DNA from: Tepidimicrobium xylanilyticum
GTDB taxonomy: Bacteria; Bacillota; Clostridia; Tissierellales; Tepidimicrobiaceae
Length of the DNA: 64,000 nucleotides
Assembly (NCBI RefSeq): GCF_900106765.1
Contig: NZ_FNNG01000002.1
Coordinates: forward strand, 186,001 to 250,000
Direction: 5' to 3'
The position numbers and the translations under genes are program-made. Positions 6,416 to 33,638 of this stretch are shown here, piece by piece; the first letter of the stretch is position 1, and every line of letters begins with the position of its first letter. The notes under the pieces were generated by a model that did not search any database, had not been told where the DNA came from, and saw only the letters and a list, made by a program, of their open reading frames with translations.

Positions 6416-7159
6416 CTACAATATCCGTACTGTTATTTCTTTCCCTTCCTCATAGCCTTTCAATTCCTTTACCACTCCAAGTACAGCATTATATAAAACT
6501 CTCTGGACGAAGGGAACCATTTCTATATCCTTTCCTCCAATTTGCAGTTTTACTCTGGACTGTGCCAATACACAATCTTCCCTTCTAGCCTTTCCTTTTA
6601 ATATCAAGGCTCCTAATTGTCTACAACTATAACCGCATTCGCCACAACAATCTTCAGGAAAATCTGGCAATTTATCAAAAACCTTTTCTTCTATTAAATC
6701 CACTATCTTTTCTACATTATCTATAGTATTGATAACCGGCAAGCCTTCAAATTCGTCTAAGCTATTGGATATTTTCCCAGATATAGCAAATACCAAATCA
6801 TCCAACCTTTCCAAGATTTCCTTCTCATTATGGGCAGTAATAATCTTTGGCACATTGGAATCTGTAACTCCTTCCAATATAACAAAATCATGGTTATAAA
6901 ACTTAAGGATTTCATCCATACTCAATTTTTCCTGGAACAATATATCAGTTTCGAAATATCCTCTTGCTGTTACCAGTTGGGAGCCAGCTTCTCTATGCCT
7001 ATATGTATTGGACCCTACCGTGTCTATGGCAAATTTCTCAAAATGTATTTCCTTAACTGAACCTACAGAATAATTCCTACTTCTCAATTCCTTGATTATA
7101 TTCTCGATAGTTGTGGTCTTGCCAGATTCCGTTATTCCCACTACGGAAAAAACCTTCAT
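6416..7159 (-). CDS. MobB-like GTP-binding protein with a cysteine cluster
   Basis: A 247-residue cytoplasmic P-loop protein. MKVFSVVGITESGKTTTIEN contains the Walker A (GITESGKTT). The switch-like HFEKFAIDTVGSNTYRHREAGS and later DFVILEGV match MobB, which assists attachment of GMP to molybdopterin. After the usual domain comes an extra region with FPEDCCGECGYSCRQLGALI and REDCVLA, five closely spaced cysteines plus one more (about residues 173-195). Such a cluster could hold an Fe-S centre or a metal and is absent from E. coli MobB. It is the last main gene of the locus that begins at 19.6 kb and follows EcfT by 14 bases, suggesting a role in cofactor or metal handling. Substrate is not shown by sequence. 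Confidence 0.75.
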   Translation of the reverse strand: MKVFSVVGITESGKTTTIENIIKELRSRNYSVGSVKEIHFEKFAIDTVGSNTYRHREAGSQLVTARGYFETDILFQEKLSMDEILKFYNHDFVILEGVTDSNVPKIITAHNEKEILERLDDLVFAISGKISNSLDEFEGLPVINTIDNVEKIVDLIEEKVFDKLPDFPEDCCGECGYSCRQLGALILKGKARREDCVLAQSRVKLQIGGKDIEMVPFVQRVLYNAVLGVVKELKGYEEGKEITVRIL

Positions 7160-7173
7160 CTACTTCCCTCCAA

Positions 7174-7914
7174 TTATATGAAATAATAATCAATTATATA
7201 TGAAAGGGTAAACACAACAATGGAAAAAATTATCAGATAATCCCACTTAGACATTTTTAACACTAGAAAGCTTGTGCGACTATCGTAGGCTCTAAACCCC
7301 CTCATTTCAATAGCAACCGACAACCTTTCAGCCTTTAATATAGTTCCTACTAATATAGGGGTGAATATATGGGAATACAAACTGATCCTTTTTTTAAGAG
7401 GCATATTATTTACTTCAATTCCCCTTAGCTGGAGGGCAATTAATGAATCCTTGACCTCTTCAGTTAATAAGGGCAAAAAACGAATACCTACTGCTACCAT
7501 GAAGGCTATATCATAGGGTAATCCCCATTGAACCAGTCCTTGTACTATCTTCCTGGAATTTGAAGTGGTAATTATAGTGGCTGAAAATACTATTATCATC
7601 ATTCTTACTATGAATTGGATTCCCTTTTCTAATCCTATGCTAGTTAAGACCGGAAGACTTCCAATGGAAAATAGAACTTCCCCTTTGCTAGAAAATATGC
7701 TCTGGACTATTGCAATAACAGCTATCATGTATAAAAGTCTCTTTACCTTATTTAAACTCCTCTTCAAATTCACCTTAAAAAACAAAGTCACTATTAAGGT
7801 TAAAATTAATATAATACAAAGGGAAAGAGTATCTTCACTTATAATGGCTAAAGTGGAAAAGCAAAAGACCATAAGAAGCTTGGTTCTGGGATCTAATTTA
7901 AATCCTCTGGTCAT
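7174..7914 (-). CDS. ecfT: Energy-coupling factor transporter membrane subunit EcfT
   Basis: A 246-residue integral membrane protein. After MTRGFKLDPRTKLLMVFCFS (the DPRTKL motif typical of EcfT) come helices at about 15-60, 65-85 and 100-115. Then the two cytoplasmic coupling motifs appear: SLIALQLRGIEVN and LSVAIEMRGFRAYDSRT, each holding an xRG core that engages the ATPases. It clamps the substrate-binding S component to the ATPase pair. It overlaps the end of the upstream ATPase gene by 17 bases. Together with the ATPases at 7898 and 8569 and the S component at 10811 it makes a dedicated (group I style) ECF transporter. Confidence 0.9.
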   Translation of the reverse strand: MTRGFKLDPRTKLLMVFCFSTLAIISEDTLSLCIILILTLIVTLFFKVNLKRSLNKVKRLLYMIAVIAIVQSIFSSKGEVLFSIGSLPVLTSIGLEKGIQFIVRMMIIVFSATIITTSNSRKIVQGLVQWGLPYDIAFMVAVGIRFLPLLTEEVKDSLIALQLRGIEVNNMPLKKRISLYSHIFTPILVGTILKAERLSVAIEMRGFRAYDSRTSFLVLKMSKWDYLIIFSIVVFTLSYIIDYYFI

Positions 7915-8572
7915 ATATTATTTCACCCCTATGGATTTCTATTTTCCTATGGGCAATTTCTTCAATAAAGGAATGATCATGGCTAATAATTGTCATTCCA
8001 ACTCCTTTTTCTGTTAGTTCCCTTAGTACTCCTACGAGTATTCTTTTCCTCTCAAAATCCAACCCATTAGTCGGTTCATCTAAAATCATATATTCAGGTT
8101 CATTAATCAATATGGTGGCAATGGCAAGCCTTCGCTTTTCCCCTTGGCTTAACAGTAATGGAAAACTCTCCCTTAAACCCTCCAAGTGAAATTCTTTTAG
8201 TAAGCCTTCTACTCTGTTTTTAATAAAAGCTTCTTCGCAGCCATTAAACTTCAATGCAAATCCCAATTCCTCCTCTACCGTATTACAAAAAAAATGCTTT
8301 TCTGGATTTTGAAATAGATACCCTATCTTGGAACCTATTTCTGCCAAGGTCATTTTAGAATTATCCCTATTGGATATAAGAACTTGTCCCCTAATAGGCC
8401 TTAAAATCCCCATTATAAGCTTACCCAAGGTAGTCTTTCCACTTCCATTGGAACCCAGTAGGGCTGTAACTTCATCCATTCTTATCCTTAAGCTTAAATT
8501 ATTAAATATAGGCCTTCCATTTACATATTCAAAATGTAAATTCTTTATTTCTATAAAATCCAAATAGGTCAC
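7898..8572 (-). CDS. ECF transporter ATPase, second subunit
   Basis: A 224-residue ABC ATPase. Walker A is GSNGSGKTT, the Q-loop is GYLFQNPEKHFFCNTVEEEL (the QNPE form typical of ECF ATPases), the signature is LLSQGEKRRLAIA (degenerate LSQGE), Walker B is YMILDEPTNGLD, and the H-loop is TIISHDHSF. It powers substrate import through EcfT. The GTG start overlaps the stop of the other ATPase gene by four bases, a sign of coupled translation. The degenerate signature and LSGGQ in its partner suggest an asymmetric pair. Confidence 0.9.
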   Translation of the reverse strand: MTYLDFIEIKNLHFEYVNGRPIFNNLSLRIRMDEVTALLGSNGSGKTTLGKLIMGILRPIRGQVLISNRDNSKMTLAEIGSKIGYLFQNPEKHFFCNTVEEELGFALKFNGCEEAFIKNRVEGLLKEFHLEGLRESFPLLLSQGEKRRLAIATILINEPEYMILDEPTNGLDFERKRILVGVLRELTEKGVGMTIISHDHSFIEEIAHRKIEIHRGEIIYDQRI

Positions 8573-9249
8573 CAGCCTTTAACCTCTAATTTCCCGTCCT
8601 TAAGCTCCATTAGCCGATCTGCTAATTCTAATATATCCCTATTATGATCTACCAATATAATAGTCCTTCCCTGTTCTTTCAGTTTGGATATTATATCCTT
8701 TATCCTCCCTTTACCTTCTTCATCTACCTGTGATGTAATCTCATCAAATAATAAGAGTTCCGGTTCCATAGCTAATACTGCAGCAATGGCTATAAGCTGC
8801 TTCTGCCCTCCAGATAGATTATTAGGATTTTCACATCTATACTCTTCCATTTGAACTAATTTAAGGGTCTTTTCGATTCTTCTTCCTATTTCTCCTCTTT
8901 CCACCATTAGATTCTCTGGCCCAAAGGCAATCTCATCTTCTACAGTAGGTGAAAATAGCTGAGTATCTGGGTCTTGGAATACTATCCCCACTTTTTTAGT
9001 TATTTGGGCTATTTTTAAGTCCTTAACATCCTTCCCCCATAATTTAACTTCCCCTTGGATTTTGCCCTTCCTAATATGGGGTATAATCCCGCAGATGATA
9101 TTTAAGAGGGTACTCTTACCAGATCCGCTTAATCCTGTAATAGCCAATACTTCTCCCCTGTTTAGGCTTAAGTCTACTCCCTTTAATATATAATCTGAAC
9201 CTATCCTATATTTAAAATATAAATTATGTACTTCCACTGGCTTAATCAT
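8569..9249 (-). CDS. ECF transporter ATPase, first subunit
   Basis: A 226-residue ABC ATPase. Walker A is GLSGSGKST, the Q-loop VGIVFQDPDTQLFSPTVEDE is the QDPD form found in ECF ATPases, the signature is NLSGGQKQLIAIA, Walker B is LLLFDEITSQVD and the H-loop is IILVDHN. It pairs with the ATPase at 7898. Its ATG overlaps the stop of the upstream SUOX-like gene by four bases, so the ATPases are embedded in the same operon as the extracytoplasmic redox-type proteins. The transported substrate cannot be read from an ATPase. Confidence 0.9.
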   Translation of the reverse strand: MIKPVEVHNLYFKYRIGSDYILKGVDLSLNRGEVLAITGLSGSGKSTLLNIICGIIPHIRKGKIQGEVKLWGKDVKDLKIAQITKKVGIVFQDPDTQLFSPTVEDEIAFGPENLMVERGEIGRRIEKTLKLVQMEEYRCENPNNLSGGQKQLIAIAAVLAMEPELLLFDEITSQVDEEGKGRIKDIISKLKEQGRTIILVDHNRDILELADRLMELKDGKLEVKGW

Positions 9250-9758
9250 CTTATTTCCAGCTCCACAACGAATTTACACCATCTTTGGCTAAACTGGTCT
9301 TTCTTAACAATTATCTGGTAAGGCCCACTGCCTCCCCTTTCCCTGCTATCCAGATATCTGTCATTTATCTTATAGGCCAAATAAATATTATCCTCATCCA
9401 TCACCTCATCTATGCTAAAAACAACGGTATAACCATCTATCCCCCGCACTATTACCTGCCTTTTATCAGCTATAGATATTCCCACTTCCTCAATTAAATT
9501 AATTAATGGTATTCCAGTATAGCTGTAGTCTTGCGGGTCTGTATCGCTAGTGTCTAGGGTAGCCAAAAACTCTACTTCTCCTAATTCAACTATATCCTCA
9601 AATTTTATCATGCTCTCCATTTCATCCCCTTTTACGATTATTTCAGCCATTTCCAAGGCCCCCCTTTTATCCTTTACAAGCTCTCTATTCATTAAGGCAA
9701 AAACCCCCAGTATAATTACTAATATCAATATAATAATACCAATGGTTTTATTACTCAA
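9246..9758 (-). CDS. Membrane-anchored small SUOX-fold (molybdopterin-oxidoreductase-like) protein
   Basis: About 170 residues: one N-terminal membrane anchor (IIILILVIILGVFALM) and an outward-facing domain. That domain shows the pattern of the sulfite-oxidase fold: a FEDIVELGEVEFLATL strand-helix start, YTGIPLINLIEEVG, GIDGYTVVFSIDEV, and a closing GGSGPYQIIVKKDQFSQRWC. The Moco-ligating cysteine of true sulfite oxidases is missing. The TTG at 9758 is chosen as start because GGAGG sits about eight bases before it; the upstream ATG would lie inside the preceding gene and before that site. It is a paralogue of the protein at 11422, sharing DxFSQRW. It likely works outside the membrane with the ECF transporter that follows. 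Confidence 0.7.
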   Translation of the reverse strand: MSNKTIGIIILILVIILGVFALMNRELVKDKRGALEMAEIIVKGDEMESMIKFEDIVELGEVEFLATLDTSDTDPQDYSYTGIPLINLIEEVGISIADKRQVIVRGIDGYTVVFSIDEVMDEDNIYLAYKINDRYLDSRERGGSGPYQIIVKKDQFSQRWCKFVVELEIR

Positions 9759-10818
9759 ATTGGCCCCCTCCTTCAAGAATTATATAAGGAACCATTAGGT
9801 CCTCATATCTAAATAGGCCATGATCACCACCATCATCAGTTGAATGCATTCCATGGTCTGCAGTTATAATTACCTTCCCCTTCCACTTGGATACCATTTC
9901 TTCTAAATAGCCATCTATCCGTTTGATAAACTCCATAGTTTCCTCAGAAAGGGGTCCATAGGCGTGGCCGCAATCATCAATTCCATGAAAATGAGTAAAT
10001 ATAAAATTATAGCCTTCCTTTATAGCCTCCATAGTAGCTTTAAATACTTCATCATCGGTAAAACCATCCTTATTTTCATCCAAATGCAAGATGGGTTCAA
10101 TTTCCGTTTTAAGTATACCTATATTCCCTTCTACATATAAGGTCTTCTTATACAATTCCTCTGCTAACTTGAATATGGAATCAACCTTTAACTCCCTCTC
10201 ATTTCTAGAATGGATTCCATTTTCTATAGGATACCTGCCTGTTATTATGGCAGCTAATCCTGCATTGGTTACAGGTTTATAGACTGACATGGCCTTTTCA
10301 GCCCTTGCTTGTTCCTTTAAAAAGGGTAAATATTCCCCTTCAATAGCATATAGGTATTGATGGTATCCCAATCCATCTAACAAAATAAACAATACATCTT
10401 CCTCTACCAAAAAATTAGACATATCCTCATAGGCATGGGTAATGTTTTTATTAGGAGGATTTAATACTACACCTATCACATCCTCAACTAGAGCTGTGCC
10501 AGTTCGGTCCATGTAACCGATAACATCGTTATTAGTTAGGAAATACCCCCCTTCTTGAAGGCTTTCCACTTGGCCTAATCTACCCATTATCACTGCTCTA
10601 TCATATTCCTCATCTATAAGATCCTCTAGCCTAAATTCCCTATATTCCTTTGGAGATATACTTTTTATATTCCTTTCCCCATCGATTATATTCATTCCCA
10701 TTTCCCTTCTATCATCACTAGTAACTTCCCCATCCCTTGAACCCAACTTCCCACAGGAAGGTATCAATAGCATTATTAAGCTAAATAGGAAAAGTAGAAA
10801 TATGTACTTCTTATTCAT
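9751..10818 (-). CDS. Type I phosphodiesterase/nucleotide pyrophosphatase-like lipoprotein
   Basis: A 355-residue secreted lipoprotein: signal peptide with lipobox LLIPSC (Cys22). The alkaline-phosphatase-superfamily metal sites are present in order: LFILLDGLGYHQY, the nucleophile region PVTNAGLAAIITGRYPIEN, HFHGIDDCGHAYGP, VIITADHGMHSTDDGGDHG. In this superfamily such enzymes cleave phosphodiester or pyrophosphate bonds, for example in nucleotides or FAD. Here it would act on the cell surface. It overlaps the S-component gene by eight bases, so a role in trimming a ligand before ECF import is attractive but inferred. An alternative is phosphoglycerol or teichoic-acid cleavage. Confidence 0.8.
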   Translation of the reverse strand: MNKKYIFLLFLFSLIMLLIPSCGKLGSRDGEVTSDDRREMGMNIIDGERNIKSISPKEYREFRLEDLIDEEYDRAVIMGRLGQVESLQEGGYFLTNNDVIGYMDRTGTALVEDVIGVVLNPPNKNITHAYEDMSNFLVEEDVLFILLDGLGYHQYLYAIEGEYLPFLKEQARAEKAMSVYKPVTNAGLAAIITGRYPIENGIHSRNERELKVDSIFKLAEELYKKTLYVEGNIGILKTEIEPILHLDENKDGFTDDEVFKATMEAIKEGYNFIFTHFHGIDDCGHAYGPLSEETMEFIKRIDGYLEEMVSKWKGKVIITADHGMHSTDDGGDHGLFRYEDLMVPYIILEGGGQFE

Positions 10819-11389
10819 CGTGTCCTCCTTTGTCTATTAGGTTTTTTAATGCGTTATTTTTCTTCAAACCTTTAATTATATTATAGGCTATCAATCCGCC
10901 AATTCCTCCTGAAAGGGAAGCTGAAGTTAAAGTCAGTACTAAAGGTATTAATGGCAGCCTGAAGAACACCAAATTAACTAGAAAAGTTCCACTTATGTTG
11001 GCTAATATTCCTGCTATAAAATAATTACCTGGATTAAACTCCCTTCTTTTAATCAATAGAAGATAAAGGTCTACAACCAATCCGGGAATTATGTATGTAA
11101 AAAAGCTTACAATTCCATGGGTTCCGTATATGCCAAGGCTTACCACCATGATGGATTGAACTAGGGATATTAAGGTAGCAACTCCAACCTTTCCTATTAA
11201 GCCCATTCCCAACACTATCCACATCATATATAGGCCTCCTGCAATAGCCCCACCGGGAATGAATAGGGGACCGGTGATGATATGGGCCAAGGGCACTATA
11301 ACTGGCTTGGTGGCAATACCTAAGGTAGCCATTAGTGCAATTACTATTATTTCAAAAATGGAAAATTTATTCACCAAATTCTTAAACAT
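10811..11389 (-). CDS. ECF transporter substrate-binding S component, ligand unknown
   Basis: A 192-residue protein with about six membrane helices: IFEIIVIALMATLGIATKPV, a GPLFIPGGAIAGGLYMMWIV loop-helix, VATLISLVQSIMVV, TYIIPGLVVDLYLLL, YFIAGILANISGTFL and LVLTLTSASLSGGIGGLIAY. The ALMATLGI stretch in helix 1 resembles the alanine-rich motif that S components use to dock on EcfT. Vitamin specificity cannot be assigned; it lacks features that I would recognise as RibU, ThiT, BioY or CbiM. Its position inside this locus suggests the ligand relates to flavin, pterin or metal-cofactor supply. Confidence 0.8.
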   Translation of the reverse strand: MFKNLVNKFSIFEIIVIALMATLGIATKPVIVPLAHIITGPLFIPGGAIAGGLYMMWIVLGMGLIGKVGVATLISLVQSIMVVSLGIYGTHGIVSFFTYIIPGLVVDLYLLLIKRREFNPGNYFIAGILANISGTFLVNLVFFRLPLIPLVLTLTSASLSGGIGGLIAYNIIKGLKKNNALKNLIDKGGHDE

Positions 11390-11421: not shown

Positions 11422-11916
11422 CTATTCTATAATAATCTCTTCAACATGTTTAATCCAGCGTTGACTAAAAGGATCTCTTCTTATTACCAACTGAAAGGGG
11501 CCATTGCCTCCATGTTTCTTAGATTTCATAAGCTCTCCATCCCTTTCAAAAGTGAGATAAACATTGTTTGGTTCCAAAAGCTCCTCAACCTTCAAAATTA
11601 TCCTATATCCATCTGTTGCATTGAAGGTTATCCTCTTTGCACCAGATGTATCTATACCCAAGGATGAAAAGAAAGTGGATAATTCAATACCCTTATATTC
11701 CGTTTCAATAGGCTTTTTCCCGCTACTCCTTACTACAGCAGGAAAAACAATTGCTTCTGAATGACTATATATAAATTCCTTATCAACAATCTTCTCAGCT
11801 TCTCCTTGAACGATGGTTATAAAAATATCCTCTTCTGCAAAAAATCCTAATGAAAAGGCAAAAATAATTATCAACCCACTTACAGTTCCTATGGCAATTA
11901 TCTTTTTAATACTCAT
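11422..11916 (-). CDS. Membrane-anchored small SUOX-fold protein (paralogue of the 9246 protein)
   Basis: A 164-residue protein with an N-terminal signal/anchor (IAIGTVSGLIIIFAFSLGFF) and one extracytoplasmic SUOX-like domain. Landmarks: YKGIELSTFFSSLGI, ITFNATDGYRIILKVEELL and the closing GGNGPFQLVIRRDPFSQRWI. The domain contains no cysteine at all, so it cannot ligate Moco in the usual way. It shares GxGPxQ and DxFSQRW with the 9246 protein. Its ATG overlaps the upstream NapH-like gene by four bases. A ligand-binding or electron-relay scaffold role is inference. Confidence 0.7.
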   Translation of the reverse strand: MSIKKIIAIGTVSGLIIIFAFSLGFFAEEDIFITIVQGEAEKIVDKEFIYSHSEAIVFPAVVRSSGKKPIETEYKGIELSTFFSSLGIDTSGAKRITFNATDGYRIILKVEELLEPNNVYLTFERDGELMKSKKHGGNGPFQLVIRRDPFSQRWIKHVEEIIIE

Positions 11917-13103
11917 CTTATCCTCCTATTTTCCTCTAAGGCTTGATTAATTCCGCTCTTAACCGCATTTATAAAACCTCTACTTGTGGCTGTAGCTCCG
12001 CTTATAGCATCCACATTGAAATTTTGGCTCTCAATTATATTTATGGAAATCCTCCTAAAAACCTCCTCAAAATATCCAATAGTTTCATTGTGGTCAGTTG
12101 GATTTATATCTACAATCCTCCCATTTCTTATAATTACCTCTACCTGCATCCTGCCACCAAAACCAATTCCAGTCCCAATATAGGTTCCATCCTTTAAAAT
12201 ACCTAAATCCATTATAGATTGGGTATTGTTGTTTGCTTTAATTGATGGAAAGAATAGATAAATTCCTATTATCAAGGTAAGACTAATGGCTATATAGGAA
12301 TTCCTATTAAGGGTTTGCCTTACAAATTTTAAAGTATAGCCCTCAGTATGCCTTATACATTGGGTTTCCACACATTTTAAACACCGAATACACTCTGGCG
12401 AAATCTCACCATTATCAGGCTTATCTATGGCAACAGCGCAATCCCTTAAACAATAGGTACATCCACCGCACCTTTCATTGGCATAGATTCCAGATGGGCC
12501 AAGGACAGTAAGTAAGCTCTGAAAAGCCCCTAATGGACACAAAAGCCTGCAGAAAGCCCTTTTTATAAATAGGGAAGTTGAGGCTATTATCAATAGTATA
12601 AAAAAACCTACCTGCAAATTAAAGCCTAGGAATAGGTTTAAATAAGCAAGCCAGGGAGAATAGAACGATACCCTGTTCCCCAGACCTAAAATGCTCAATG
12701 TTAGGACTATTAACAATATTAAGTATTTTAATACTTCAGGTTTGAAATAACTCCCTCTTGGAAGCCTTCTCCCCCTAATCCCCAGCCTTCTTCCCATATA
12801 TTTAAAGAAATCCTGTAGGGCTCCTATGGGACACATATATCCACAGAAGAACCTGCCCATTAATAGGGCAACAAGGGATATTCCAATGGTAAGGGCAATA
12901 GACCTGCTTATCCCCCTCCACTTGTAGGATGGATCAGTAAAAGTAGATTTTAGGGCACTCCAGCCCCCATAGGGGTTGATATCCCCTATAGATAGTACTT
13001 TAGAGTCCACAAGCCCATTGATATATAGATAATATACTATACAAGTTATTATGGTAAATAAGGTAAAAGCTATCTGTATGATACTTCTCTTGCCTATTTT
13101 CAT
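11913..13103 (-). CDS. NapH-like membrane polyferredoxin with C-terminal flavin-binding domain
   Basis: A 396-residue membrane protein. Helices lie near 10-30, 65-85, 125-145, 155-180 and 270-290. Paired CGYMCPIGA (87-95) and CRLLCPLGA (185-193) motifs are the NapH/NosR-type cysteine motifs at the membrane face. Two clusters follow, CGGCTYCLRDC (212-222) and CIRCLKCVETQC (238-249), fit for [4Fe-4S] centres. After a final helix the C-terminal domain (about 300-396) is an FMN_bind domain with DAISGATATS (SGAT at 368-371), where ApbE attaches FMN covalently. It would pass electrons across the membrane to outside flavins. No ApbE gene is visible in this window. Confidence 0.88.
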   Translation of the reverse strand: MKIGKRSIIQIAFTLFTIITCIVYYLYINGLVDSKVLSIGDINPYGGWSALKSTFTDPSYKWRGISRSIALTIGISLVALLMGRFFCGYMCPIGALQDFFKYMGRRLGIRGRRLPRGSYFKPEVLKYLILLIVLTLSILGLGNRVSFYSPWLAYLNLFLGFNLQVGFFILLIIASTSLFIKRAFCRLLCPLGAFQSLLTVLGPSGIYANERCGGCTYCLRDCAVAIDKPDNGEISPECIRCLKCVETQCIRHTEGYTLKFVRQTLNRNSYIAISLTLIIGIYLFFPSIKANNNTQSIMDLGILKDGTYIGTGIGFGGRMQVEVIIRNGRIVDINPTDHNETIGYFEEVFRRISINIIESQNFNVDAISGATATSRGFINAVKSGINQALEENRRIR

Positions 13104-14680
13104 CTTTTCTCAACCCTTATTATATCCTTCATTAGCTCCCTGTCGCCCTGGTAGATGCTTACCATGTTTTCATCATACACCATATAGGAATTGAGCATTT
13201 CCTCATAGGATATTTCCCTTTCTCCGCCATTTCTATCCGCTAGAGCAAATCTAGCTTCCTCACTCCATCTCATCCCTGCTGTTAACAATACATCCTCCAA
13301 GAGTAACCCTTCCTTACCACCTATGTCCTTGGTTCTAACCACTTGCGACATTTTATTTGGGAATATGACAGCATCCTTGGTAGTGGAAAAATGGGTCATA
13401 TGCTTTACATTCATGCCCAGTTTAAAGGTAGGGGCTATATTCATTGGGGCATTATCCCCTTCAACCTTTATAAAGTATCTTTGCCTGACCATAGATATGG
13501 TTTCATTTTTAACATAACCATCGACAGAAACCATGGTAAAAAACCCCTTTTCATCTACTTCGTCGAACTTGCTTAAAATCCTGCCTAATTCGTAGGATTT
13601 ATCCTTACTACCGTAGTATTCATAGTAGTAGGGTTCAATATCTTCCACTAAGGGTTCAAATATATGAACCTTATCTATATCCTTGGGAGAAATTTTGTCG
13701 TACAGGTCGATGTTTGTTACCATCTTCACCCAATAGGGCCCCAATTCATTAGGCAAAATTACCCTTACAGGCTTCTCATCCTCCTTAATGGGCTTGCCAT
13801 TAACTTCCCAGGCCAGTATCACATCGTTGGTTTCCAATTTTTCTTTATCTATCAAGGTATAATACCCATCCCGGCCTGTTACCCCTATGCCCTCATAGTC
13901 ACTTAAGTCTATCCCTTCTCCTTCTAGAATATCTCGAAGGGTAGGGCCTTTTACACTTAGGGGGGTCTCCGTACCTGTGGTATTGATAAGGATTACATCT
14001 ATTTCCACTTGCTCATATTCCTTTATTTTCTCAGTATTAATCCTAATTAAACCACCTTCCCAATTTATGGCGAAGCTATTGCTGTCCTTCTCCCACATCT
14101 CCTGAGGTACCACATCTGCTACCCCTTCCATCTTTAAACTCTTCATCAAATATTGGTAGGCACCTATAGCTGCATTAACTGCATTGACCACAGCTTGGGA
14201 ACTAACCGTTGCTCCCGTCACCTGAATGATGTCCTCTGGCTTTTCCTTTTCTAAAACCACCAGATTTAAGTATTTGTTTGCCACTATATTTTTAAACCTA
14301 TCCAGAAACCAGTTGGATTCAATATGTTCTGCATAATCTAAGGATTCTTCATGATCCAATATCTCTATTCCCAGCAATTCATCGGTACTGCTATCTATTG
14401 CTACCAACACATCTACAGGCCCATTATAACCTACACAGCTGGATACAAAGACCTTCAAGTCCCCATCTACCTCATAGGCCCTCTTTACCCCAGGAAAATT
14501 AATGGAGATAAACATATCATCTGCAATATTCTTTACTAGTCTAACCTTTTTTGCATTGGGAAAAAAGGCCCTAACCTTAAGTTCCTCTTCAGAAGCTTTA
14601 TTCTTCATGCCAAAAAGTAGGCCTACTATGGTAACTACTATTACTAAAAAAATTATGTAAAAGTTTTTGCCCCTCATCAT
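13100..14680 (-). CDS. Anchored flavin-binding protein with SUOX-like domains
   Basis: A 526-residue protein with an N-terminal signal anchor (FYIIFLVIVVTIVGLLFGM). Residues about 35-180 form an FMN_bind domain ending in VTGATVSSQAVVNAV (TGAT at 155-158), a probable covalent FMN site. Residues about 204-330 resemble a SUOX-fold domain (GPTLRDILEGEGI, GVTGRDGYYTLIDKEKL, LGPYWVKMVTNIDL). A further region (335-520) looks like a divergent copy, with VSVDGYVKNETISMV and a last segment on an induced-site pattern. It overlaps the NapH-like gene by four bases, which is consistent with electrons moving from the membrane ferredoxin to this protein. The domain pairing flavin plus SUOX fold is unusual. 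Confidence 0.75.
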   Translation of the reverse strand: MMRGKNFYIIFLVIVVTIVGLLFGMKNKASEEELKVRAFFPNAKKVRLVKNIADDMFISINFPGVKRAYEVDGDLKVFVSSCVGYNGPVDVLVAIDSSTDELLGIEILDHEESLDYAEHIESNWFLDRFKNIVANKYLNLVVLEKEKPEDIIQVTGATVSSQAVVNAVNAAIGAYQYLMKSLKMEGVADVVPQEMWEKDSNSFAINWEGGLIRINTEKIKEYEQVEIDVILINTTGTETPLSVKGPTLRDILEGEGIDLSDYEGIGVTGRDGYYTLIDKEKLETNDVILAWEVNGKPIKEDEKPVRVILPNELGPYWVKMVTNIDLYDKISPKDIDKVHIFEPLVEDIEPYYYEYYGSKDKSYELGRILSKFDEVDEKGFFTMVSVDGYVKNETISMVRQRYFIKVEGDNAPMNIAPTFKLGMNVKHMTHFSTTKDAVIFPNKMSQVVRTKDIGGKEGLLLEDVLLTAGMRWSEEARFALADRNGGEREISYEEMLNSYMVYDENMVSIYQGDRELMKDIIRVEKR

Positions 14681-14688
14681 CTTATTAC

Positions 14689-15459
14689 CTACTCCACTAC
14701 AATTCTATCTATATTTGAAACCCATTGTGGCTTGTTCACATCTCCTGCTTCCTTCTGGCCTACTATTAGTTTAAAAGGAGGTCCTTCTACTGGGTCATAT
14801 TCTACTCCATTTTCTTCCCAAGCTATTATCATGGGAAGTTTTTTATTTGGATCCGTTTCGTCTATATAGTCCTGCCTCTTAACCTCTTCAACAGTAAACT
14901 CCATACTGTAACCATCCGTTGCAATGATAGAAACTTTAGCAGCTTCTGAAGATATATTTGCTTTTTCAAGCAACTTCCACAAATTAACTCCCTTAAAATT
15001 AGTATGGGCAGTCGTTCCAAAATTGTTTATGGAATAGTAGTCAGCTTGGAATATGATATCATCCATAGCCTTAAGGTCCTTTAAGGTCAGCTTCAACTCC
15101 TTGCCAACCTTTCCCTCTATCTTTAATAGAGCTGCCTCTTCTTCCACTACTTCCTCCTCATCAGCTTTTTGAGGCTCGGTTTCTTTAGGTTTTTGAGCCT
15201 GATCAGTAGTCTCCTCTTTAACTACCTCCTCTTCCTCAACTTCTTCGATTTCCTCTTGAACTGCTTCCTCCTCTGTAGGAGTAACCTCTCCTCCAGTATC
15301 TGTGCCCATTTCCTCCTCTTCAGCTAGGTCTACCATTTTTTCCTGTTCCAGATCTATGGCAATGTTCTCACTCCTATCTTTAGATTTACATCCTGTTAAT
15401 GATAAGGAAATGGTTAAAATGATGATAATAACTAATTTGATTAGCTTAAACCTTCTCAT
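14689..15459 (-). CDS. Lipoprotein with acidic linker and C-terminal SUOX-fold domain
   Basis: A 256-residue lipoprotein. The signal peptide ends in SLSLTGC (lipobox, Cys24). Residues about 35-110 are an acidic, Glu-rich low-complexity spacer that would hold the C-terminal domain away from the membrane. The domain (about 110-256) shows LTLKDLKAMDDIIFQADYYS, FKGVNLWKLLEKANI, IIATDGYSMEFTVEEVK, LPMIIAWEENGVEYD and a closing GPPFKLIVGQKEAGDVNKPQ followed by WVSNIDRIVVE. This is the clearest single SUOX-like domain in the locus, and it lacks the Moco-ligand cysteine. Nine bases separate it from the next gene. Confidence 0.75.
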   Translation of the reverse strand: MRRFKLIKLVIIIILTISLSLTGCKSKDRSENIAIDLEQEKMVDLAEEEEMGTDTGGEVTPTEEEAVQEEIEEVEEEEVVKEETTDQAQKPKETEPQKADEEEVVEEEAALLKIEGKVGKELKLTLKDLKAMDDIIFQADYYSINNFGTTAHTNFKGVNLWKLLEKANISSEAAKVSIIATDGYSMEFTVEEVKRQDYIDETDPNKKLPMIIAWEENGVEYDPVEGPPFKLIVGQKEAGDVNKPQWVSNIDRIVVE

Positions 15460-15502: not shown

Positions 15503-18415
15503 TTAGTTTTTAATAAACCTCAGTAACATAACCGTAGCTTCTGCCCTAGTTGCATTATTATTTCCTCCAATAATACTACCTAATAAGCCCTTCATAATTC
15601 CTGCATCTATTGCTTTAGCTACCGAATCCCTGGCCCATCCTTCAACTTCATCATCAAAATTAGACAATATATATGCTACCTCTTCCTCACTTAATTCATT
15701 ATCTAATAGGCTAGCTAATATAGAAGCTATCTCCTGCCTTTTTATTGGCGCATTAGGTCTAAAGCTGCCATCGCCATAGCCCTTAATAAGCCCAGCATTT
15801 ACAGCAGATAATACCTCTTTATAAAACCAATCTGAATCCTTTACATCCTTAAATGGACTGTCCAATTCAAAAGAATCCAATCCCAATATTCTAACCAGTA
15901 TTGCTATAAACTCAGCCCTTGTAATATCATCATTGGGCCTAAATTTGTCCTGGCTTCCCTTTACATATCCCATAGCAGCCATCTCTTCTATTTCCTGCTT
16001 AGCCCAATGGTTTTTAATATCTTCAAAACCTCCAGTGCCAATAAGGGGTATACCTAAATCTTTCACATCTTCCATCTTAGGCTCTTCATAGTCTCCGTTA
16101 CCTACCACAATACAGTCCGTCCATTTAACCCACATGGATTTGCTTTCCTCAAATATAAGCCTTAATGGACCAAAAGCGTTATTATATGCATAGCCTCCAT
16201 CGCTCTCATTTGGTACTAGCGGATATCCATCAACTGCATAAGCCAATATTATCTTCTTCAACTCCCCTTTTGAATTTACTATGCCCTCCATTAGATCCTT
16301 GCTACTTCTTATAATTTGATTATAATTCGGCCCACTAAATACCCTTACGCTGCTGGGTATCTCTACACCTTCCTTAAGTCCTACAACCTTGGATATAATA
16401 TCCCACAAGACTATGCCTTCAAATTCACGCACACCATCTCCAGTATATACATCCCTGACTATATGATCTGTCAAGGATTCTAATTGCCTTAGAGTAAAGG
16501 TCATAGGTTCCTTAATTTGGGAACCGGTTATTCTTAAAACTGGCATGTCTAGGTATTGTGTATAAACTCCTTGGTTGTGGTTCCAGGCTGCATCCTTACC
16601 TACTTCCTTGTAGGTGGATTCTCCAGAATCCTTCCTGTCCTCATCAAAGGATACAGGCTCTCCTCCTCCAATGATTATCTCCTTCAAAAACTGTACTTGA
16701 TTAGACCCATTAGGATCGTTATAATCCTTCTTACCAAATATAACCCTTACAGGCCCTCCATCATTACCTAAACCAGAATTATATCCTTCATCAGTAGACC
16801 TTATGACATAGGGGTATCCGTTAAAACCATAGGCTACTAATACAGGCATCCCCGTATGAAGAGGCACTTCACTAGAACCATCAAATCTTCCATCACCTAA
16901 ATCCTCTGGATTCTTTTCATAATATCCATACAATGAACTATCCTTTATCTCCTTGATAGTCATTGGTGCAAAATAATACCTATCGGCTGCTATAAACTGG
17001 ACACTAGTATTTTCATCTATATTGGGGTCTATTCCTATCTTAAGGAGTAAATCCCATAGTGGAATCCCCTTATACCGATTGTAATACCAGAAGTACTCGC
17101 TGTTGGATAAACTGTACTCATCTTCATACTTTAGATCATCCATGGCCTCTATATCAGAAACCTTAAGCCTTACCTCCCCATTCACCTTATTACCATGGAT
17201 AATTATCTCATAGTTGGTATATTTAAGGTCATCATAAGGCGGATAGGTATGCTCGTATATATTCTTTGCATCCTTCTCCTCTACGTAGATATAAGCAACA
17301 TTTGAGAATTCCTTGGCTGTGTTCTTATCCTGTTCATATACTAGCTTAAAGCAGCCATTGGCGTTATATTTTTCAGGCCTGTAACCTGCATCTGTGTCCA
17401 AATATACAAAGGGTACCTCATTTATTCCATAGGCAATAGTGTAATAGCCTACTTCCTCTATAGGTATAGTTAAGATGGTTTTTCTGGACTTATCCTTAAA
17501 TATTAGGTTTCCTGCCTTGGGGGTAACCTTTACGTAGTTGTCTACTAAGTATTTTGCATTTATTCCTTCATAGTTGTTTTGAACAACTTTCCCATCTACC
17601 TTTTCATAGTATGTAACCTGTTCCTGACCAGCAACATCCTCTTCGATCTGCCTCAAGGAAATAGCCCTATAGCCTTCCACCCCAGGACCTTCGATGGTAA
17701 AGGTTGCGCCAGTTATGGCATCTATATTATATGGAGCCCCAACATAGCTAATGTGCTTATAGGGTGAATCCTTGCTAATTCCTTGGCTAAGCTTTTCAGA
17801 TAGCCTCTCATCGCCAATGGTTATCTTCACAACCTCTTTTCCCCATTGAGATAGGTTCATATCATCAATACTTGTCTGACCAAAAGCTAATTTTGGAAAA
17901 CCCTTGTCCAAATCCTTGTTGGCAATCTCTTTATCTTCCCATCTAATTGGAGGTGAAAAATTGTTTTTAGGGAAATCGACCAACTCCAAAGTATACTTAG
18001 CTATCATGGGCTCAACTTTTTCCTTGGTCTTTTCAGTGAAATCTCGGAAGAAATAGGTGTTTTTAAGTTCGCTTATGGTCTTAGTAAATTCAAAACCATC
18101 AGCACAGGTAAACTTAACCTGATAGTCCTTGTCAGTCTTTAGGTTATCCTTACCTATTAATTCGAATAGGTCATACCCCTTTACCTTGATGATCTTGTGG
18201 AAATATAGGCTATTGTTTCCAGAAAAATATCTTTCCACCATCTGATACTTATCCCAGTCGGATTCTGTAATTTTGACATCCTCATAAACTCCTGTACCTG
18301 TAATCAATAGTTCAACTGCTGCAGCTTCAACTATGTCCCCTAGAAAGGCAAATTTGGAAAGTAGCATCCCTATTATTAATAGGACTGAAAATAATCTATT
18401 TCTTTTACCTTTCAT
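15503..18415 (-). CDS. S-layer-anchored protein with four SUOX-like repeats, a TGAT flavin motif and three SLH domains
   Basis: A 970-residue secreted protein. Signal peptide about 1-32. SUOX-like segments lie at roughly 32-202, 246-380, 402-585 and 622-775; typical pieces are YKGIPLWDLLLKIGI, FEGIVLWDIISKVVG, GGPVRVIFGKKDY and FGPLRLIFEESKSMWVKW. Between the first and second is DAITGATFT (TGAT at 235-238), resembling a covalent FMN attachment site, although a full FMN_bind domain around it is less clear. Three SLH domains (about 796-840, 855-900, 918-968) bind secondary cell-wall polymer, so it sits on the outer wall. It follows the shorter SLH gene at 18484. It could present flavin or another ligand at the cell surface; function is not established. 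Confidence 0.8.
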   Translation of the reverse strand: MKGKRNRLFSVLLIIGMLLSKFAFLGDIVEAAAVELLITGTGVYEDVKITESDWDKYQMVERYFSGNNSLYFHKIIKVKGYDLFELIGKDNLKTDKDYQVKFTCADGFEFTKTISELKNTYFFRDFTEKTKEKVEPMIAKYTLELVDFPKNNFSPPIRWEDKEIANKDLDKGFPKLAFGQTSIDDMNLSQWGKEVVKITIGDERLSEKLSQGISKDSPYKHISYVGAPYNIDAITGATFTIEGPGVEGYRAISLRQIEEDVAGQEQVTYYEKVDGKVVQNNYEGINAKYLVDNYVKVTPKAGNLIFKDKSRKTILTIPIEEVGYYTIAYGINEVPFVYLDTDAGYRPEKYNANGCFKLVYEQDKNTAKEFSNVAYIYVEEKDAKNIYEHTYPPYDDLKYTNYEIIIHGNKVNGEVRLKVSDIEAMDDLKYEDEYSLSNSEYFWYYNRYKGIPLWDLLLKIGIDPNIDENTSVQFIAADRYYFAPMTIKEIKDSSLYGYYEKNPEDLGDGRFDGSSEVPLHTGMPVLVAYGFNGYPYVIRSTDEGYNSGLGNDGGPVRVIFGKKDYNDPNGSNQVQFLKEIIIGGGEPVSFDEDRKDSGESTYKEVGKDAAWNHNQGVYTQYLDMPVLRITGSQIKEPMTFTLRQLESLTDHIVRDVYTGDGVREFEGIVLWDIISKVVGLKEGVEIPSSVRVFSGPNYNQIIRSSKDLMEGIVNSKGELKKIILAYAVDGYPLVPNESDGGYAYNNAFGPLRLIFEESKSMWVKWTDCIVVGNGDYEEPKMEDVKDLGIPLIGTGGFEDIKNHWAKQEIEEMAAMGYVKGSQDKFRPNDDITRAEFIAILVRILGLDSFELDSPFKDVKDSDWFYKEVLSAVNAGLIKGYGDGSFRPNAPIKRQEIASILASLLDNELSEEEVAYILSNFDDEVEGWARDSVAKAIDAGIMKGLLGSIIGGNNNATRAEATVMLLRFIKN

Positions 18416-18483: not shown

Positions 18484-19641
18484 CTATTTATTAAACAAGG
18501 CATTATATACTATTAAAGCTGCCTCTGCCCTAGTAACCACTTTTTTAGGTTCAAATTTTTCCTCAGCAACTCCCTTAAATACGCCTTGAGCATCTAACCA
18601 CGCCACTTGGTTAGCTGCCCATGATGAAACTTCGTCCTTATCTTCAAAAGATGTTTTTTCCATTACAAACTTGTTCATCTTCTCCTGATCTACTAGACCA
18701 GCTAGTACAGCAGCCCTTCCCACAACAGCAGCTAATTCTTCTCTAGTTATTTCTTTATCTGGTCTGAAAGTTCCATCAGTATACCCCGTAAATAAGCCTT
18801 CTCTAACGGCTGCTTCTACATAAGGAGCAAACCAGTTTTCAGCTTTTACATCGGTAAAGTTTCCAGAATATTCCTCTAGTTCATAGCCTATAGCTTCAAC
18901 TGCTATCTTGCAGAACTGAGCTCTTGTGAAAACATCACCTGGAGCAAATATATTATTACCTACTCCGCTTACAATTCCCCTCTTAGCAAGTTCATAGATG
19001 GCTGTTTCTGCAAATTTATACTCTTCTGTAATGTCGGTAAATACAATCTCCTCAATTTCTTTTACTGGCTCTATTTCCGGTTTTGTTAGTTCTTTAACCG
19101 ATTCCTCTGCTTGTTCAATAGCTTCTCCTACAGTTATTCTTACTACCAATTTAAATACAGTACCAAATTCTCCTTCTTCTTTTAACTTTCTATAGATGAC
19201 TATTTCCTCACTCTCTGGGTTATCGTCATTATCGATTGGCTCTCCATCAATCTCATAAGCTAAAACATATTTTAAATCTTGGTTTAATATATCTTGTAAA
19301 GTCTGTGGATCTATTGGATATCCATCTGATGCTTCAAAATTTACCAAAGCATTTTCAACAGTTAATCCAGCTACTTTCTCTAATATGTAAGCTAAGCTAA
19401 CCCCTTTAACCTTTACAGACTTTTGACCCGATTTACTGTTGTATATGTATTCTTCATTAATTTGGGCTTCTTCTGGCATAGCTTTTAAATCATCAAGGCT
19501 AAATTCCAATTCCTTTTCCACACCTGGTCCTGAAATTTTAATGGCAAAAGCGTTAACATTACCTGCAAATACTATTCCTTGTGACAATATTAATACCATT
19601 GCCATAATAATTGAGACAATTTTGAATTTTTTGATAAACAT
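18484..19641 (-). CDS. S-layer protein with one SUOX-like domain and three SLH domains
   Basis: A 385-residue secreted protein; signal peptide about 1-26 (VLILSQGIVFAG). One SUOX-like domain spans about 32-172: LEFSLDDLKAMPEEAQINEE, VKGVSLAYILEKVAG, FEASDGYPIDPQTLQDIL, YVLAYEIDGEPID and FKLVVRITVG. Three SLH domains follow (about 199-243, 261-305, 329-380) with YTDGTFRPDKEITREELAAV as a typical core. No cysteine lies in the SUOX-like domain. It is the first gene after the structured leader RNA and therefore the gene most directly under that element. It is a shorter relative of the 15503 protein. Confidence 0.82.
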   Translation of the reverse strand: MFIKKFKIVSIIMAMVLILSQGIVFAGNVNAFAIKISGPGVEKELEFSLDDLKAMPEEAQINEEYIYNSKSGQKSVKVKGVSLAYILEKVAGLTVENALVNFEASDGYPIDPQTLQDILNQDLKYVLAYEIDGEPIDNDDNPESEEIVIYRKLKEEGEFGTVFKLVVRITVGEAIEQAEESVKELTKPEIEPVKEIEEIVFTDITEEYKFAETAIYELAKRGIVSGVGNNIFAPGDVFTRAQFCKIAVEAIGYELEEYSGNFTDVKAENWFAPYVEAAVREGLFTGYTDGTFRPDKEITREELAAVVGRAAVLAGLVDQEKMNKFVMEKTSFEDKDEVSSWAANQVAWLDAQGVFKGVAEEKFEPKKVVTRAEAALIVYNALFNK

Positions 19642-19669: not shown

Positions 19670-19915
19670 ATTTAGTCAAAACTAAATTTAAAGCAAATAA
19701 AGGGAGAGGAAAAATTTAAAGCAGCATCCCAGATGGAAATGCCGCATCTTTAAACTTCTCCTTTCCACTGGGAGGCTTGACCGTTTCCAGTCAAACCCTA
19801 TCGGCAAGTTGACCATAAATTTATAGTGTAAATTCCCAGGCCAAAATGCTCGGAGACTATGGAGCTATTCAACTATTCTACTTATTAATACTTTAACATA
19901 CAAATCTTCCTATGT
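19670..19915 (-). ncRNA. Structured 5' leader with terminator, candidate riboswitch (possibly Moco/Tuco class)
   Basis: Read on the minus strand the leader contains CTCCGAGC, GGCCTGGGAA, then a ten-pair hairpin capped by GAAA (GGTTTGACTG/CGGTCAAGCC), directly followed by TCCCAGTGGAAA. That last segment can pair with TTTCCATCTGGG further down (eleven pairs). The same downstream region can instead form a terminator: TTTAAAGATGCGGCAT with ATGCTGCTTTAAA, then a T run. Mutually exclusive pairings of this sort are the mark of a riboswitch. The conserved-looking blocks and the molybdo-enzyme-like genes downstream suggest the molybdenum/tungsten cofactor motif (RF01055), from memory only. It is not an FMN, TPP or cobalamin element by their known cores. 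Confidence 0.65.
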
Positions 19916-19951: not shown

Positions 19952-20042
19952 ACAGTGTTTATAAGATATTTTGGCAGTTTTAATCTTTTTCTAAATATGC
20001 TAAACTATTACTATATAGACAAATTGTAACGGGGTGTTTTTA

Positions 20043-20552
20043 TTGAATAATCTATTTTTAACCGGAAGAATTGGAATAGGTAAATCTACAATATTAAAAA
20101 AGGTTTTAAATAATATAGACCTGTCCATCGGCGGCTATATTACAGAAAGAATATATGAAGGCTATTATAGACGATATATTGCGAAATCAGTAAAAAACCC
20201 TAATGAACAATATACAATAGTTAGATCTGATTCTAGGGATAACTCAAAGATATGGTTTCCTGAAGCTTTTGAAAAGGGGTTGGCACCACTCTTAGATAAA
20301 AGCCTAAAAAGTGACGATATTATAGTACTAGATGAATTAGGCTCATCAGAAAAGAATATAGATGTATTTACCTCTAAAATATTTGAATTATTGGATAGCC
20401 AAAAAATAGTATTTGGAGTTTTAAAGGATGAGGACTGTGAATTTTTGAACAATATTCGAAATAGGAAAGATGTAATGATAATTAGAATAACAGAGGGAAA
20501 TAGAGATCATATTTGGCAGGAAATTATTAACACACTTAAAAATTTTATTTAA
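20043..20552 (+). CDS. THEP1-like nucleoside-triphosphatase
   Basis: About 169 residues. The opening MNNLFLTGRIGIGKSTILKK carries the Walker A, and VLDELGSSEKN is a Walker B-type segment with a following acidic residue. GGYITERIYEGYYRRYI and the total size fit the DUF265/THEP1 family of small NTPases, whose biological role is unclear. The TTG at 20043 is preferred over the GTG at 20034 because GGGGTG lies just upstream and because the family normally begins right before LFLTG. It stands alone, divergent from the SUOX/SLH locus. Confidence 0.7.
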   Translation: MNNLFLTGRIGIGKSTILKKVLNNIDLSIGGYITERIYEGYYRRYIAKSVKNPNEQYTIVRSDSRDNSKIWFPEAFEKGLAPLLDKSLKSDDIIVLDELGSSEKNIDVFTSKIFELLDSQKIVFGVLKDEDCEFLNNIRNRKDVMIIRITEGNRDHIWQEIINTLKNFI

Positions 20553-33211: not shown

Positions 33212-33528
33212 TAAAATAAAAATTCGACCATATTTTTGACATACTATGACGAAGACGTGAACTATCTAAATAATCAAATACAGAGAGCTGGGGTAGCTGA
33301 GAACCAGTTTTGATTTGATAGGGATCTCTCACTTCTGAGTTATACAGCTGAACCTGTAATAGTAGTAGGTTGTATCGGTAGGCTCCGTTATAAGGCCAAG
33401 GTTTAAATAGGAATATACTATTCCTATCGAACCTAGTGAGTTAATTATCGCGAGATAATTAAGAAATAGAGTGGTACCGCTATTTACATAGCCTCTATAT
33501 GTTAAAAACATATAGAGGCATTTTTTAT
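33212..33528 (+). ncRNA. T-box riboswitch, probable Leu (CUC) specifier
   Basis: The T-box core AGAGTGGTACCGC (33468-33480) precedes a strong terminator: GCCTCTATATGTT (33491-33503) with AACATATAGAGGC (33507-33519) and a T run. Stem I: GAAG (33251-33254) pairs with CTTC (33332-33335), 85 bases in all, with the distal AGAGAGCTGGGG...GAACCAG loop. Just inside the helix is CTC (33328-33330), then A, which fits a leucine specifier. ATC (isoleucine) lies four bases before it, so a branched-chain codon is read either way. Uncharged tRNA would prevent termination and turn on the liv operon. The second T-box in the window has the same geometry. Confidence 0.93.
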
Positions 33529-33560: not shown

Positions 33561-33638
33561 ATGGATAATAGTGATGATGGAATTATTGGTTTATTGCAGT
33601 TATACAAAATATTAAATTTAAGGAGTGATTGTATATGA
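33561..33638 (+). CDS. 25-residue leader ORF coupled to livJ
   Basis: MDNSDDGIIGLLQLYKILNL plus five more residues. It has an excellent AGGAGGTGA ribosome site before its ATG, and its TGA overlaps the livJ ATG (ATATGATC), the classic arrangement for translational coupling. The livJ ribosome site (AAGGAG) lies inside this frame. The peptide contains several Leu and Ile codons (Leu 5, Ile 3), but it lies after the T-box terminator, so transcription attenuation by stalling here is not implied. Unknown family, maybe only a translational enhancer for livJ. Confidence 0.55.
   Translation: MDNSDDGIIGLLQLYKILNLRSDCI

Follow-up and report, generated by a model that had tools for sequence, protein, structure and literature searches.

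A P3-lacking RF01055 riboswitch upstream of an operon predicted to import the molybdenum/tungsten cofactor

Closest described systems

The molybdenum/tungsten cofactor (Moco/Tuco) is usually regarded as too unstable for sharing. The dietary acquisition of Moco by C. elegans (PMC9793310) parallels the present proposal in that the cofactor comes from another organism, but it is an animal system whose transport route is unknown; according to the same 2022 paper, no organism other than C. elegans had been seen to take up exogenous Moco, and the way in which Moco crosses membranes is left as an open question. The passage of pterins across membranes is likewise given as unknown in a 2026 review (PMC13259868), and a part for some T11SS proteins in molybdopterin uptake is a speculation in one 2025 paper. 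Among riboswitch regulons, a 2013 survey names B12, thiamin, riboflavin, queuosine and folate as the coenzyme-uptake classes, without Moco (PMC3766115). Our search of the open-access literature, with subscription papers and preprints outside its scope, turned up no bacterial importer of Moco.

Several described systems nevertheless bear on the locus considered here, which lies in a 64-kb stretch of DNA (the window). The RF01055 riboswitch (Regulski et al. 2008, PMC2408646) comprises an aptamer with a GAAA tetraloop and a conserved core, a P3-less Tuco subtype and a terminator-type expression platform. In that description, the P3-less RNAs go with tungsten-cofactor genes, possible exceptions being those that precede “sulphite oxidase” genes of S. 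wolfei. The leader in the window has these same features but differs from the family as described in that the operon it regulates is predicted to import the cofactor. The ECF vitamin importers (e.g., ThiT, RibU and the 5EDL S component) share with this operon the S fold, two ATPases, a T component and control by a coenzyme riboswitch, whereas the substrate predicted for the operon is a metal-pterin cofactor; an importer of this ECF kind has no described Moco/Tuco counterpart in the searchable literature. Finally, PruR is a periplasmic pterin-binding protein with the sulfite oxidase (SUOX) fold (PMC13259868; 7KOM, 7KOS). Like it, the operon encodes exported SUOX-fold proteins without the Mo-ligating cysteine, PruR and its counterpart being about 170 aa long. 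However, PruR signals through DcpA, whereas the operon proteins are encoded beside an importer, several of them as fusions with SLH or FMN domains; a domain search found no DcpA-type GGDEF/EAL regulator among the operon genes of the window.

The leader RNA and its switch geometry

A sequence-only reading had placed a structured leader RNA at 19670-19915, with competing antiterminator and terminator, and named it a candidate Moco/Tuco riboswitch. All the elements it described are present on the minus strand, and these coordinates bracket the element correctly. A cmscan search of the 64-kb window recovers RF01055 at 19742-19867 (-) with 66.5 bits (E = 8.3e-14), far above the gathering score of 36 bits, in an alignment that spans the full model (positions 1-135). 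No other Rfam class reaches threshold at the leader, the 16.5 bits for snR42 being noise. Thus, the Infernal check upholds the proposed identity and, as RF01055 fits, rules out the alternative of a new riboswitch class: the RNA is an ordinary member of its family, and the novelty lies in the import system. The segments CTCCGAGC and GGCCTGGGAA correspond, respectively, to the P1/junction part and the P2 region of the minus-strand RNA. The GAAA-capped hairpin noticed earlier is P4 (CTGGAAACGG, at about 19774-19798, -), which is supported by the sequence, the fold and the Rfam alignment. The conserved core is TCCCAGTGGAAAGGAG; TCCCAGTGGAAA was found at 19773-19762 (-). For the 241-nt leader, the folding energy is -86.2 kcal/mol, whereas 200 shuffled versions average -55.3 (z = -6.5) and none of them is equally stable.

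The earlier reading left open whether the ligand is Moco or Tuco. The P3 stem is absent from the leader, the P3 positions of the model being deleted in the alignment, and the genome to which the window belongs carries tungsten-cofactor genes, namely, four AOR genes and a TupA-like gene following a second RF01055 RNA. Together, these point to the Tuco subtype, which we propose for this leader, binding of Moco/Tuco itself being inferred.

The core segment UCCCAGUGGAAA (19762..19773, -) doubles as the 5′ strand of an antiterminator, as indicated by duplex and fold tests and by covariation. In the same tests, its partner is UUUCCAUCUGGGA (19727..19739, -; TTTCCATCTGGGA of the earlier description, found at 19739-19727), which otherwise makes up the loop and upper stem of an intrinsic terminator with a U run (19710..19755, -; stem at 19745-19721 and a T run). 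The two segments can form 12 pairs (6+6) with one bulged U, a duplex stronger than those obtained with 200 of 200 shuffles of the downstream sequence. When the transcript ends just past the 3′ strand of the antiterminator, the minimum free energy structure contains this helix, and forcing P1 with a free core at that length costs about 9 kcal/mol; once the U run is included, the terminator displaces it. The competition between the two structures that had been read from the letters is therefore borne out.

Pairing of the core (UCCYNNUGGAAA) with the terminator loop recurs in 20 distinct homologous leaders, with 90% of cells paired. The helix covaries across them: 13 cells are changed on both strands against 3.2 in shuffles (0/500), three pairs have changed on both sides, and the score exceeds that of every slid register. 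This alignment carries the caveat that the downstream 12-mers were picked for complementarity or position and that a bulged base was dropped in two rows. The comparison of duplexes with shuffled downstream sequence is independent of that choice and gives 0 to 4 of 200 for most leaders and up to 27 for the weakest. As an aptamer core held by its ligand favors termination, the leader should be a transcriptional OFF switch through which the cofactor represses the operon; the RNA family, switch geometry and covariation are established computationally, without expression data. A response of this surface locus to cofactor status, as had been suggested, follows from the RF01055 match and the covarying antiterminator. 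The sequence-only reading is thus supported but gave neither the direction of the switch nor its link to an ECF importer, a nucleotide-pyrophosphatase-like protein and MobB, which are encoded toward the distal end of the operon.

Comparison with other leaders suggests which kind of gene the operon resembles. Of seven related loci, six have RF01055 immediately before the homologous first gene; the remaining one (L009) matched only weakly, through SLH repeats, and was set aside. In the family of the window, these RNAs precede three kinds of genes: those for a TupA-like tungstate-binding protein, SUOX-SLH operons and AOR-type tungstoenzymes. By inspection, the OFF-type complement is also present in the tupA leaders (TGGAAAGGA / TCCTTTCCA). 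In four AOR leaders (L036, L037, L068, L074), a strong terminator uses the 3′ strand of P1 as its 5′ arm, and the ligand should therefore prevent termination (ON). Both leader kinds occur in G051 and G038 (L068 and L074 for AOR; L060, L061, L063 and L073 for the operon). With demand genes (AOR) ON and supply genes (tupA) OFF, the SUOX operon behaves like supply.

Other observations on RNAs in these genomes and in the window may be recorded here. A P3-like stem was noted, among the leaders compared, only in L072 of G082. That RNA lies upstream of genes for a FecCD-type ABC transporter, a MobA-like fusion and MobB and is the Mo counterpart of the P3-less RNA in the same genome. In G035 and G048, the gene downstream of an RF01055 RNA (L070, L071) encodes L-glutamate gamma-semialdehyde dehydrogenase (TIGR01236). 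This aldehyde dehydrogenase is of the NAD type and possibly a tungsten-independent stand-in for AOR. Within the window, an NTPase_1 (PF03266) gene at 20034-20552 (+) diverges from the riboswitch, and in L019, L030 and L084 a gene of this kind also lies next to the RNA of the operon or to its S component. An ordinary T-box leader (RF00230, 105.4 bits) is found at 33237-33499 (+), ahead of an operon that begins at 33629 and resembles those for ABC amino-acid transporters.

Operon content, protein folds and distribution

The operon runs on the minus strand from 19641 to 6416, with no clear break from its first gene to MobB. It opens with two surface proteins, one (18484..19641) combining a SUOX-fold domain (PF00174, E=1.1e-6) with three SLH domains (PF00395) and the other (15503..18415) with three SLH domains (PF00395), an FMN-attachment-like motif, only sub-threshold PF04205 and blastp similarity to SUOX-fold proteins. 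These are followed by a SUOX-fold lipoprotein (14689..15459; PF00174, E=1.6e-11), whose only cysteine is the lipobox-type Cys24; a fusion of FMN_bind and SUOX-fold domains (13100..14680; PF04205, PF00174); a membrane polyferredoxin (Fer4_5) with an FMN_bind domain (11913..13103; PF12801, PF04205); and a small exported SUOX-fold protein (11422..11916; PF00174). The remainder comprises an ECF S (substrate-binding) component (10811..11389; PF09819), a phosphodiesterase lipoprotein of the ENPP/alkaline-phosphatase superfamily (NPP; 9751..10818; PF01663), a membrane-anchored small SUOX/PruR-fold protein (9246..9776; PF00174), the ECF ATPases A1 (8569..9249) and A2 (7898..8572), both recognized in profile searches, an ECF T component of the CbiQ family (7174..7914; PF02361, E=2e-29) and MobB with a C-terminal FeS domain (6416..7159; PF03205, PF04060, with TIGR00176 above cut-off).

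These assignments are supported by structural comparisons. The AlphaFold model of the S component (pLDDT 79) best matches the S component 5EDL (TM 0.76) and is closest to vitamin S components. With two ABC ATPases and the T component, the operon encodes a complete ECF set, from which import of a substrate is inferred. In the phosphodiesterase, D148, T184, D281, H285, D321, H322 and H333 are invariant across five homologs and resemble metal ligands, and the best PDB matches are ENPP7, ENPP1 and NPP; by its residues and its sequence relations, it has the two-metal active site of the alkaline phosphatase superfamily. The SUOX fold of the operon proteins is evident from PF00174 and from Z scores of about 17 to sulfite oxidases; the model of the small membrane-anchored protein (pLDDT 84) gives Z 17.1 to PruR and about 16.8 to sulfite oxidases. 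Across the loci compared, the SUOX proteins have no conserved cysteine at the Mo-ligand position, a feature shared with PruR, and they are hence probably not Mo enzymes. The sole conserved cysteine of the small protein sits near the C terminus, in an RWCK/RRCK motif. This residue (Cys167) does not vary among 19 small SUOX/PruR-fold proteins and lies away from the Mo-ligand site; it is possibly a cofactor contact. Operon content, folds and the missing cysteine are computational results, and the role of each protein is inferred from them in the absence of binding or transport data.

Genome profile searches with the FMN-SUOX or S-component profile as marker place the operon in at least 38 of 199 genomes of the order, all 38 of which also have RF01055. 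More distant S-component matches (e.g., G025 and G128) were discounted, the S gene being in a different cluster in the two loci inspected. Distant S-component paralogs at 5251-5802 of L067 (reverse complement) and at 2634-3167 of L089 belong to another cluster, beside an NTPase_1-like and a methyltransferase-like gene. The core of ECF S, NPP, SUOX, A1, A2, T and MobB is kept across several families, even where the operon is compact and has neither SLH nor Fer4 genes. In the compact form (L048, L049, L051, L052), the RNA is followed by an FMN/SUOX lipoprotein part, ECF-S, phosphodiesterase, SUOX, A1, A2, T and MobB; L050 has a compact operon without an adjacent MobB. In G021, G051 and G038, the SLH and ECF modules lie apart, each with its own RF01055 RNA. 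An APH-type kinase, absent from the window, is found at or near the operon end in most of L048, L049, L051, L052, L054-L060, L062-L066, L079 and L082 and is reminiscent of a salvage kinase, for which it is a candidate by analogy.

Cofactor auxotrophy and a proposed salvage route

Genome searches detected neither moaC nor moaA in 15 of the 38 carriers, and in 12 of these 15 MoeA was not detected either, the other three (G038, G074, G082) keeping one MoeA-like gene. Nine of the 15 are at least 95% complete, and G048 and G082 consist of one and two contigs, respectively, though most of these genomes are fragmented. Genes for AOR (as many as 12, in G051) and/or for DMSOR-type enzymes are present in all 15. 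In G035, G042, G048 and G072, a DMSOR-type gene even stands beside a MobA-like gene despite the lack of moaA, moaC and moeA; such MobA-like genes were recognized by eye, MogA and MobA having been outside the genome-wide searches. Hence, these carriers use and seem to sense the cofactor without being able to make the pterin or, usually, to insert the metal, yet they retain the end of the pathway at which the nucleotide is attached. By comparison, moaC is missing in only 3 of 47 RF01055-bearing genomes without a detected system (Fisher p = 3e-4, descriptive only, as the genomes are related). G100 was rejected as an auxotroph without the system, as contig ends interrupt its SLH operon and fall within tupA or just past it; the moaC-less G088 has moaA, and G095, also moaC-less, is 84% complete and was not resolved. 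MoaE, found in 6 of 61 genomes, is uninformative as a pathway marker, being undetected even in most genomes with moaA and moaC, and pathway gaps are accordingly to be read with care. The same 61-genome search did not find this large subunit of MPT synthase in the genome of the window.

That carriers without cofactor synthesis keep both the operon and cofactor-dependent enzymes argues that the operon is an uptake system. We therefore propose, with considerable though not full confidence, that the P3-less OFF switch and the operon constitute a salvage importer for finished tungsto- or molybdopterin cofactor, substrate and direction being inferred without transport data. When the cofactor is lacking, the aptamer core would pair with the terminator loop and the operon would be read; when it is present, the core would be locked in the aptamer and the terminator would form. 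The SUOX/PruR-fold surface proteins and lipoproteins are predicted to capture the cofactor, the exported ENPP-type phosphodiesterase to strip the nucleotide from dinucleotide forms, and the ECF S-A-A′-T complex to bring it in; MobB, with MobA elsewhere, could then put guanylate back where needed. The FMN/ferredoxin proteins might pass electrons across the membrane, perhaps keeping the labile cofactor reduced, which is the weakest step. Free Moco is very labile, and an extracellular source must therefore be protein-bound or protected. Against capture of the full cofactor, the pocket of PruR is reported to be too small for full Moco (PMC13259868). The genome of the window carries four AOR genes and a TupA-like gene besides moaA, moaC and two copies of moeA; import would thus be auxiliary there and would supplement synthesis during shortage of the tungsten cofactor.

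Other cargoes deserve consideration. The operon could import tungstate, molybdate or a metal complex, with the SUOX-fold proteins as mere scaffolds, given that tupA operons share the OFF-type leader, that Cbi/Nik-type ECF systems carry metals and that PF09819 is named for cobalt transport. We think this unlikely: metal alone cannot supply the cofactor in genomes without moaA, moaC and moeA, the S component most resembles those for vitamins, and the phosphodiesterase, MobB and the pterin-binding folds would remain unexplained. A metal-free pterin precursor (cPMP or molybdopterin) finished inside the cell is a comparably doubtful substrate, though PruR does bind simple pterins (PMC13259868), a single MoeA-like gene persists in 3 of the 15 auxotrophs, and MPT synthase goes unrecognized in most of these bacteria, such that MoaE cannot exclude completion of cPMP; the lack of MoeA, needed for metal insertion, in the other 12 speaks against it, and a nucleotide pyrophosphatase makes most sense with a dinucleotide cofactor.

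Import is itself in question if the FMN, ferredoxin and SUOX proteins form an extracellular redox system that serves as a tungsten-independent backup when Tuco is short. This would fit the OFF switch, the FMN_bind and Fer4_5 proteins and the alternative-pathway logic that Regulski et al. (PMC2408646) proposed for P3-less RNAs before “sulphite oxidase” genes. We nevertheless hold it to be very improbable, as the constant part of the operon is the ECF importer, phosphodiesterase, MobB and small SUOX protein, the redox proteins are reduced or missing in compact operons, and no Mo-ligating cysteine is present. Scarcely any credence remains for the SUOX-fold proteins being surface Mo/W enzymes switched on when cofactor is available; PF00174 matches and SLH anchoring at the surface might suggest it, but both the absent cysteine and the OFF geometry of the leader contradict it. 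The salvage-import proposal may, in turn, explain the S. wolfei “sulphite oxidase” exceptions, although S. wolfei itself was not examined.

Taken together, the computationally observed loss of moaA and moaC, mostly with moeA, in cofactor-using genomes that bear the operon inclines us, with some reserve, to a broader view: that there is dedicated bacterial import of the intact, metal-loaded pyranopterin cofactor and that some Tissierellia-like bacteria are natural Moco/Tuco auxotrophs living on cofactor from their neighbors. The system so envisaged comprises surface capture by SUOX/PruR-fold proteins, extracellular dinucleotide hydrolysis, ECF import, reactivation by MobB and OFF control by a Tuco riboswitch. 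If this is true, the bounded import operon, the auxotrophic carriers and the cofactor-sensing switch would make cofactor transport directly testable, and the transporter and binding proteins would provide tools for handling Moco, including in research on Moco deficiency. It would also add a vitamin-like exchange to anaerobic communities.
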